Shown here: positions 54,956-57,463 of the stretch, piece after piece
How positions within the stretch are numbered: position 1 is the stretch's first letter
Layout: every line of letters starts with the position of its first letter
Virus record (IMG/VR): IMGVR_UViG_3300013137_002966
Coordinates: 29,723-93,722 of that record
DNA from: a virus
DNA length: 64,000 nucleotides
Reading direction: 5' to 3' (one strand)
Position numbers and translations under genes: made by a program
Notes under the pieces: model-generated
The model's database searches: none
Told to the model about the DNA's origin: nothing
What the model saw: only the letters and a program-made list of their open reading frames with translations

Positions 54956-57463
54956 TTATTGTAACACAATCTTTTTAACACTCATTTCTGAACCATCATT
55001 TATTTTTAAATAATAAATACCTTTTGAAAAACTTGTAATATTAATTTGCTCATCATGATTTTGAATATTTTTTAATTCGTTATAATATACAACTTGTCCA
55101 GATGCATTAATCATCTGAATTTTCATATCAGTACTCTTATTATTTATAAAACTAATAGTAAATTTATCATCAACCGGATTAGGATAAACATTAATTCTAT
55201 TTTCTAATGTATAATCATTGACACCAGTACCATAATTAACAATTACAAAATATTCAACAAATGAACAATTTTCTGCCCAAACAGTATAAACAACAGGTGT
55301 AATAAAATCATTAACAGTAACTCCATTAACCTGAGTAATATTATTATGCGTCAACACTGAACCATCACTAGTAACAAAACTAGCTACTAAATTAGTTTTC
55401 TCTATTCTCGTAGGAATTAACAATTCAATAGTCTTACTAGTTTCATTAATGGTTCCAATTATATCAGTGCGTAGTTCTCTGTTATTATCAGAATCAAACC
55501 AATAATTAAGTAATTTTTTTTCACTATTTTCTGGTCGAACCACTGCAGTAACTGTATAAGTTTTAGAAACACCAGATTCTGATGTAATGATAATATTAAT
55601 TGGATTAGTCAAATCAATAACACCAGATGTTCTTGAAGAAGTAGCGCCATCACTAATAACAAAAGAAGAAAATAAAGTTGATAAATTAGTACCATATTTA
55701 ACAGAAACTGTAATATTATTATCAGTGTAAACACCTGGTACAATATATCTAACACCAAAACAATCAGTTAAAGTCAATTTAAAGTCAATTAAATCGTTAC
55801 CAGTCTTGGCAGGTATTTTAGAAACTATAACCTCATATCTTTCTTGAGTTCCATCTTCAGCAGTAACAACATATGTTAAAGCATTAGAATAATTATTAAT
55901 ATTAAAATCACTTATTTGTGGCGTAAAAGTACCATTACTTTCAGCAATAGATACACAAGAATAAATACTACTAGTAAAATATGCTCTTAATTGATAAAGA
56001 TTAGTATTATAAGGAACAATTACATTAATTCTTTTAAGATTCTGATCAATTGAGCCAGAATAAATTGAATCAGGCCATGAAAAACCCCATCCAGTATTTG
56101 TAGCCTTATTAAATCCAAAAGTTAAAATTTGTTTAGTATTACTAGGTACTCCAGCATTAATAATAACAGAATATGTCTTAGTTGTAATACCATCTTCAGC
56201 AGTAATTACAATTGTATTATTGCTAGAATTAAGAACCGTACCAATAGGATCAGAAGTACGAGCCAATAACGAAAAAGTCTCACCATGAATAGTTAAACTG
56301 TTAACACCATAAGGAACATTAAATGTAATAGTATTAGTTCCAATTACACCTAAAACATTACCAGTATAATTCACACCACATAAATTAACTTTAGAATAAT
56401 TTGCATCAATTGAAATTAAATCGCAACCAGTTTTAACAATATCTTTAGTAACAGTTAATGTAAAATCTGACACTTCACTTTTTAATTCAGCTTGAACCCA
56501 AAAATGTAAAACTGTCACGTCACCAGTCAAAGGAAATGATGTACCCGAGCAAATTTCATTGGTTAATGTAGATTCACTAAACATATGTGCATATGGTGAA
56601 ATTGCCCAAACAGGAGCAATAATTGTTGCAGAATATGGAACTACAGCCGTAATATTTTGTGTATTATAATTTACAACAGCTGGTGTTACAGCATTAGGAA
56701 CAATAAATGATAATAAATTATCCTGAATACTAGCAGGTCCCACAATTGGGAGAACAGAATAATTGTGCGCTACACCAGATTGTGAAGTAACAACAAAAAT
56801 CTTTGCTTCTGGAATACCATTATTATCAATATCAAAATCTTGAGCGGTAAAAGAGGTAAAATTACAAGTCGCATAAGGACTAATTGTAAAACGAACCGTA
56901 AGATCATCTAACCTAGCACCAAACGGAACAGGAAAAGTTATATTATCACCAGAAATAGTACCAGGTTCTGTTTGTAAAAACGTACCATTAGGTTCACATG
57001 GACCTGTCCAATTTTTAGCCCAAGCACCACTAAAAGTCAATATACTATTTTCTGTTGATGGAGGTCTAGTAGATATTGTTACTACATAATTTTCATATGA
57101 TAGATTTTCAGCTTGAACAGTCAAAGTTACTGGTTGAGTATAATTCCAACTCGTAATATTTGATACTGCTAATATACCTAATGTTGGATTAGCACCAAAA
57201 AATACCTTAGAAAATTCACTAGAAGTAAAAGTTGCCTTTAATGCAGTAACATTAGTAGCATAAGGTACTGTAATAGCTACTGTACGATTTGCTTGATTAA
57301 TAACTCCTGATATATCAGTTTGTAATTCAGAATTAAATGTTGTTTCAAATCCAAATGTCAACAACATTTTTGCAGAGCTTAAGTTTTGAGCCGATCCCCA
57401 AGAAAAGCTTAGAGCCAACATAATGGCTAGTAAACTAAAAAATTTTCGTAAATGTTTAATCAT
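54956..57463 (-). CDS. Secreted repeat protein with T9SS C-terminal sorting domain
   Basis: 835 residues. A signal peptide is clear: basic MIKHLRK, hydrophobic FFSLLAIMLALSF, then SWGSAQ. The body holds about seven beta-sandwich repeats of 90-120 residues of a DUF5018/cadherin-like kind, each with a phrase like (I/V)TVPYGTNxxxLxAxF..S and xYxVxxxT. The last 80 residues are a type A T9SS sorting domain: NRINVYPNPVDDKFTISF, then KGIYYLKI and VKKIVLQ. T9SS exists only in Bacteroidota and exports adhesins and gliding proteins. A phage copy would be exported by the host to its own surface. It reads like a host-derived gene, preceded by a tRNA-array terminator. Confidence 0.85.
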   Translation of the reverse strand: MIKHLRKFFSLLAIMLALSFSWGSAQNLSSAKMLLTFGFETTFNSELQTDISGVINQANRTVAITVPYATNVTALKATFTSSEFSKVFFGANPTLGILAVSNITSWNYTQPVTLTVQAENLSYENYVVTISTRPPSTENSILTFSGAWAKNWTGPCEPNGTFLQTEPGTISGDNITFPVPFGARLDDLTVRFTISPYATCNFTSFTAQDFDIDNNGIPEAKIFVVTSQSGVAHNYSVLPIVGPASIQDNLLSFIVPNAVTPAVVNYNTQNITAVVPYSATIIAPVWAISPYAHMFSESTLTNEICSGTSFPLTGDVTVLHFWVQAELKSEVSDFTLTVTKDIVKTGCDLISIDANYSKVNLCGVNYTGNVLGVIGTNTITFNVPYGVNSLTIHGETFSLLARTSDPIGTVLNSSNNTIVITAEDGITTKTYSVIINAGVPSNTKQILTFGFNKATNTGWGFSWPDSIYSGSIDQNLKRINVIVPYNTNLYQLRAYFTSSIYSCVSIAESNGTFTPQISDFNINNYSNALTYVVTAEDGTQERYEVIVSKIPAKTGNDLIDFKLTLTDCFGVRYIVPGVYTDNNITVSVKYGTNLSTLFSSFVISDGATSSRTSGVIDLTNPINIIITSESGVSKTYTVTAVVRPENSEKKLLNYWFDSDNNRELRTDIIGTINETSKTIELLIPTRIEKTNLVASFVTSDGSVLTHNNITQVNGVTVNDFITPVVYTVWAENCSFVEYFVIVNYGTGVNDYTLENRINVYPNPVDDKFTISFINNKSTDMKIQMINASGQVVYYNELKNIQNHDEQINITSFSKGIYYLKINDGSEMSVKKIVLQ

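Follow-up and report, generated by a model that had tools for sequence, protein, structure and literature searches.

The window analyzed here, 64,000 nucleotides of IMG/VR virus contig IMGVR_UViG_3300013137_002966 (positions 29,723 to 93,722 of the record), contains on its minus strand an uninterrupted open reading frame (ORF) of 835 codons, with an ATG start and a TAA stop, whose predicted product bears the export signals of a type IX secretion system (T9SS) cargo (Table 1). The protein combines an N-terminal signal peptide, seven immunoglobulin (Ig)-like repeats, and a C-terminal type A sorting domain. We interpret it, with a probability of about 0.6, as a phage-encoded T9SS type A cargo, a captured surface stalk of host type that would be displayed or released during infection. 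An earlier note had described a signal peptide, repeated beta-sandwich domains, a full type A sorting domain, and an adjoining tRNA array at this locus, and all four were borne out by the analyses below.

Sorting domain and signal peptide

In a profile search, the C-terminal domain (CTD) matched PF18962 over residues 759 to 833 of 835 (bit score, 62.3; E = 5.4e-17) and TIGR04183 over residues 759 to 835 (bit score, 49.3), for which the curated cutoffs are 27 and 23 bits, respectively. The domain thus lies at the extreme C terminus and scores above both cutoffs, as T9SS type A cargoes do, and on this sequence evidence the protein is very probably addressed to the T9SS. It is the only PF18962 copy in the entire 93,722-base record, and no match above the cutoff was obtained in 14 control genomes.

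Modelled from an alignment with ten phage homologues, the CTD has seven strands and a mean predicted local distance difference test (pLDDT) score of 86. The best Foldseek matches of the model in the PDB were Bacteroides Ig-like proteins of the DUF3244 family and the mirolase T9SS CTD (8qb1), with the translocon-bound T9SS CTDs 8gl8 and 8gl6 ranking after 8qb1; the best PDB matches of the sequence profile were the translocon-bound CTDs 8glk (2e-15) and 8glj (2e-13). Positions G44, G70, and K75 are invariant in the alignment, and the terminal motif is KKIVLQ. The T9SS CTD is itself an Ig-like sandwich, and export in Porphyromonas gingivalis depends on both a glycine in the L-beta3-beta4 loop and the motif at the C terminus (PMC11285876). 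The seven-stranded sandwich, the L-beta3-beta4 glycine, and the C-terminal lysine/hydrophobic motif are all present in the CTD described here.

Inspected by eye, the N terminus (MIKHLRKFFSLLAIMLALSFSWGSA, followed by Q) shows the n, h, and c regions of a signal peptidase I-type signal peptide, with a cleavage site between GSA and Q that obeys the Q-rule, a further property of T9SS cargo. About 71% of the signal peptidase I substrates of the Bacteroidetes obey this rule (PMC10653852), and 22 of 25 hand-picked N termini of phage T9SS proteins fit a loose version of it under a permissive pattern. No lipobox cysteine was seen close to the cleavage site. Judged from the sequence, the protein is likely to be really exported.

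Just 3' of the stop codon, the terminator-like hairpin is a perfect GACCC-GAAA-GGGTC stem-loop followed by a T run. The nearest tRNA-like gene of the array lies 110 bp upstream of the ATG; another tRNA-like gene in the array (positions 58664 to 58761) has a four-base anticodon (atca) and is possibly an odd or inactive tRNA. Late-promoter-like motifs (TATAAATA) upstream of the T9SS gene were considered and dropped, the background being AT rich and the enrichment not clear.

Table 1. Coordinates, in the window, of the T9SS cargo gene, its parts, and its surroundings
Feature	Position	Strand	Basis
Whole gene, 835 amino acids: signal peptide, seven Ig-like repeats, T9SS type A sorting domain	54956-57463	-	
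Sec signal peptide, residues 1-25, Gln at predicted new N terminus (Q-rule)	57389-57463	-	Sequence inspection; rule from PMC10653852
Repeat 1, residues 32-138	57050-57370	-	Custom repeat hidden Markov model (HMM)
Repeat 2, residues 139-246	56726-57049	-	Custom repeat HMM
Repeat 3, residues 249-345	56429-56719	-	Custom repeat HMM
Repeat 4, residues 347-442	56138-56425	-	Custom repeat HMM
Repeat 5, residues 444-554	55802-56134	-	Custom repeat HMM
Repeat 6, residues 556-647	55523-55798	-	Custom repeat HMM
Repeat 7, residues 649-749	55217-55519	-	Custom repeat HMM; modelled as all-beta sandwich, pLDDT 70
T9SS type A C-terminal sorting domain, residues 759-835	54959-55189	-	PF18962, TIGR04183, model, PDB matches
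Intrinsic terminator-like hairpin and T run, just 3' of stop codon	~54911-54938	-	Sequence inspection
tRNA array, upstream on the gene's strand, 10 ARAGORN genes	57574-60672	-	
Accessory block: SET gene, StcE-like gene, T9SS gene	53429-57792	.	Synteny comparison with relatives

A phage gene in an accessory block

The B-family DNA polymerase of the contig shows 59.5% identity to the polymerase of LR756501 (a 735-kb genome) and 41 to 44% identity to those of LR756502 (44%), LR745206, and LR756504. The huge-phage study, whose four largest genomes these are, placed them in its Mahaphage clade and predicted replication in Bacteroidetes (PMC7162821). Two further window proteins have relatives in the phage collection that are confined to Mahaphage records; for a 375-amino-acid protein beyond the tRNA array, these relatives are four Mahaphage records. 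The contig, which has no terminase or capsid gene, is by these matches a Mahaphage relative.

Its nearest relative is contig G017 (159 kb), whose DNA polymerase is 86% identical. This phage relative also has a gene with a sorting domain, a T9SS-tagged CotH gene (L013:3088-5367; bit scores, 63.2 for CotH and 33.2 for PF18962), which differs from the gene studied here in its nonhomologous cargo and in its location in a head gene cluster: it sits among protease and Gp23 capsid genes, with head-closure and portal genes to one side. With a T9SS cargo gene lying inside a structural cluster, host contamination explains the finding poorly. As T4-like megaphages, the relatives encode a prohead protease and a portal alongside a Gp23 capsid; none of the proteins scanned was recognized as an integrase, although no dedicated integrase search was made. 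We retain from the earlier interpretation the assignment of the gene to a phage, which the polymerase and the Mahaphage-only protein matches uphold, and of its product to the host T9SS, for which the address is complete, and find no support for the lysogenic cell that it had also invoked.

Synteny with relatives spans 41 to 53.3 kb of the window and ends about 1.6 kb short of the T9SS gene. Because it stops before the block of SET, StcE-like, and T9SS genes and the tRNA array, the T9SS gene is an accessory gene; in the syntenic relatives, the first three have no counterpart and other genes occupy their place. Beside the T9SS gene, the SET-domain gene (positions 53845 to 54258) adjoins a gene with an StcE-like beta-sandwich end (positions 54240 to 54848). 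The GC content at third codon positions (GC3) of the T9SS gene, 0.113, is at the low end of that of the phage's own large genes (0.115 to 0.198). Its codon usage distance of 0.148 is the highest among the large genes (others, 0.058 to 0.120), hinting at a later arrival.

The end of synteny and the deviating codon usage would also be expected if the gene were host DNA, either a chromosome fragment or a chimeric assembly fused to phage sequence, and its architecture is the same in kind as that of bacterial surface proteins. However, the gene is flanked by the phage tRNA array and then by the 375-amino-acid protein, its GC3 resembles that of the phage, and T9SS genes are present in complete Mahaphage genomes as well as within the head gene cluster of G017. 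A host chromosome at this point, the objection that the earlier note had raised against itself, is rejected on these grounds, and host DNA of either kind appears extremely improbable.

T9SS tags on other phage proteins

Other phages were surveyed for sorting domains, as the earlier note had proposed, by PF18962 searches of whole genomes. LR756502 was first picked up through its CTD, and the others were chosen by polymerase similarity. One match was found in LR756502 (bit score, 53.7), two were found in LR745206 (48.7 and 26.3, the latter below the cutoff), two in LR756501 (43 and 27.5), and one in LR756504 (28.3; 23.0 by hmmscan), while the single match in LR756500 was below the cutoff. The 43-bit match in LR756501 is internal, with a FISUMP domain after it, and is not a classical C-terminal signal. 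PF18962 was absent from all seven control records (Lak-C1, Lak-A2, two Chryseobacterium phages, Tenacibaculum phage pT24, phiKZ, and Bacillus phage G). As scored by this profile, T9SS-type tags, some of them borderline, recur on unrelated cargoes in four Mahaphage genomes of 634 to 735 kb.

The phage T9SS cargoes are nonhomologous and include CotH, FISUMP, a propeller-type protein, and small beta proteins. The cargo genes of LR756502 and LR745206 have common neighbors, a DnaJ-like gene before and a gene for a tail-like protein of ~1,000 amino acids after, and look like orthologues. A further 24 IMG/VR contigs with the CTD were chosen by the CTD pattern itself and so do not show how prevalent it is; proviruses flanked by host DNA may be among them. 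A profile-like CTD query run by tblastn found just three phage records, and tblastn is therefore too insensitive for a census. We propose tentatively, at somewhat short of even odds, that T9SS surface display is a standard strategy of the Mahaphage lineage, the largest phages known, in which a slot with swapped cargo (stalk, CotH, FISUMP, propeller, or small beta protein) serves to remodel the surface of the infected cell.

Ig-like repeats and their bacterial counterparts

Residues 32 to 749 consist of seven tandem repeats of ~100 residues with pairwise identities of 15 to 36%. The repeat profile was built from these same seven repeats, so that all seven are detected by construction, with contiguous boundaries. 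Against Pfam, no repeat scored above a curated cutoff, and there were only weak single-repeat matches to DUF5018 (0.0016) and PF12733 (cadherin-like; 0.023). The repeat profile matches chain 8a9y_T of a levan surface glycan-binding protein (SGBP) (E = 2e-11), with which a Foldseek fold search concurs, and the repeats also resemble N-terminal regions of putative glycoside hydrolases. The regions matched are the N-terminal and central Ig-like domains of the SGBP (Bt1761; PDB 8a9y, 8aa0, and 8aa2; PMC7618045). The Ig-like stalk domain alone is common to both proteins: the phage protein has seven such domains and a T9SS tag replacing the lipid, and neither the C-terminal glycan-binding domain nor the N-terminal lipidation of an SGBP is found, since the repeats occupy residues 32 to 749, the remainder is CTD, and there is no lipobox cysteine.

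Of 297 genomes sampled from the bacterial phylum, 8 have repeats of this kind. A metagenome-assembled genome, Bacteroidetes bacterium GWF2_33_38, encodes a 2,671-amino-acid protein (L203:1808-9823) with a Q-rule signal peptide, at least seven such repeats, and a T9SS CTD; it differs from the phage protein in its triple length and cellular origin, and its repeats are ~33% identical to those of the phage. Because this protein has the same plan, capture from a bacterium would be the simplest origin of the gene. No relatives of the whole protein were found in IMG/VR or, by a pattern scan, in GTDB contigs, and tblastn of the whole protein against the phage collection recovered the CTD in LR756502 only.

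Tailed phages often decorate their virions with Ig-like domains. The protein could be such a virion structural component, a decoration or fiber with a CTD-like end that is merely another Ig-like domain, and both the wealth of lectin-like fiber genes on the contig and the Ig-like fold of the CTD are compatible with that role. We consider it very unlikely in view of the signal peptide with its Q-rule site, the specificity of the CTD family, in which the domain exceeds two curated cutoffs, the occurrence of the same repeats and CTD in bacterial proteins, and the fact that the T9SS loci elsewhere are stand-alone genes.

Proposed role

In an infected Bacteroidota cell, known pathways suggest that the protein would be exported by Sec and cut by signal peptidase I, after which the glutamine at the new N terminus would be cyclized. 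The protein would pass the outer membrane via the host T9SS (PorV and SprA [Sov]), PorU would remove the CTD, and the seven-domain rod would be attached to anionic lipopolysaccharide (A-LPS) or released. As no recognizable catalytic or known binding domain is present, the anatomy of the rod suggests that it may act as a surface spacer or coat. Display as a stalk is the outcome that we favor, with modest confidence.

The leading guess for the benefit is altered access to the infected-cell surface, by receptor masking, superinfection exclusion, or adhesion. Superinfection exclusion ranks first among these guesses, with adhesion close behind, and is itself possible rather than probable. Slightly more doubtful is a role of the displayed protein in adhesion or in capturing glycans (biofilm, clumping, or more hosts nearby) instead of blocking rival phages; the kinship of the repeats to SGBP stalk domains and to the N-terminal parts of putative glycoside hydrolases points in that direction, whereas SGBPs bind glycan by a C-terminal domain, absent here, and not by the Ig-like stalk (PMC7618045).

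It is unlikely that the gene is a passenger, whether a recent neutral capture or a decoy jamming the host T9SS. Although the distribution is patchy, the cargoes are nonhomologous, and the gene lies in an accessory block, it is an intact, full-length ORF of 2.5 kb with its own terminator and phage-like GC3, and the apparent orthologues at the same site in LR756502 and LR745206 indicate that some cargo genes are kept.

Several points weigh against a phage-encoded and exported stalk. Besides the codon usage distance given above, the repeat model (repeat 7, an all-beta sandwich) reaches only a moderate pLDDT of 70. Ten contigs syntenic with the window, the closest of its fragmentary relatives at 23 to 330 kb, gave zero PF18962 matches, so that the gene is dispensable. 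Finally, a CTD that works in one genus may not work in another (PMC11285876), and the host is placed to phylum only.

Relation to earlier reports

In 2020, Bellas et al. described three T9SS type A genes in Cryophage (76 kb) and suggested both that the host system is hijacked and that superinfection is excluded (PMC7468147). The gene described here therefore adds to a known type of phage gene, and its novelty is lower than the earlier note implied. The Cryophage genes likewise come from a Bacteroidetes phage, carry T9SS type A sorting domains, and lie in variable regions; the tagged proteins there comprise a GH39 and a PA14 protein besides an endoglucanase, in contrast to the enzyme-less seven-domain stalk of a Mahaphage relative. 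P. gingivalis phages, too, encode proteins whose signal peptides follow the Bacteroidetes Q-rule, and outer-membrane modification has been proposed for them; they differ in that the T9SS is unmentioned in the text of that paper (PMC10367356). The main text of the huge-phage paper leaves the T9SS and secretion unmentioned and reports that phages encode predicted cell-surface proteins, possibly affecting infection by other phages (PMC7162821). In the literature searched, we found no report of the recurrence of T9SS tags across the Mahaphage lineage.

If export is true, very large Bacteroidota phages reach the cell exterior via a secretion system confined to the superphylum of their hosts. Superinfection exclusion or remodelling of the cell surface by megaphages, for which there is no cultured model among those cited, would thereby gain a concrete, testable basis. 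The T9SS tag could also serve as a sequence marker, pointing to phage proteins that act outside the cell and helping to predict T9SS-positive hosts.

Other features of the contig and its relatives

About 40 kb of the window (positions 207 to 40077) contains nucleotide-sugar, carbamoyltransferase, and glycosyltransferase-like genes, which suggests phage glycan synthesis or surface modification. Within positions 28556 to 31784, the DNA polymerase B frame is 510 amino acids long and covers the exonuclease and the first polymerase part only; it is followed by an unrelated gene for a 547-amino-acid protein (DUF7487, Mom-like), and relatives retain this short frame as well.

Outside the window, two features of record G000 were noted. 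A UDP-glucose/GDP-mannose dehydrogenase (positions 18326 to 20056; L003:3326-5056) is split after residue ~281 by an insertion of ~180 amino acids that starts with Cys, ends in HN before a C, and looks like a mini-intein. A long tandem array (L002:1048-14892) comprises at least 12 paralogous lectin-like (Laminin_G_3) fiber genes.

Otherwise unrelated small proteins, encoded at window positions 49768 to 50709, 51225 to 51542, and 51573 to 51860 and in L049, L053, L055, L058, and L109, have in common an MK-x-F/Y-E-like N terminus and a (K/R)(Y/F)N(L/I) C terminus. This end occurs in 24 of 353 ORFs, internal KYNL just 4 times, and it is possibly a targeting or processing tag.
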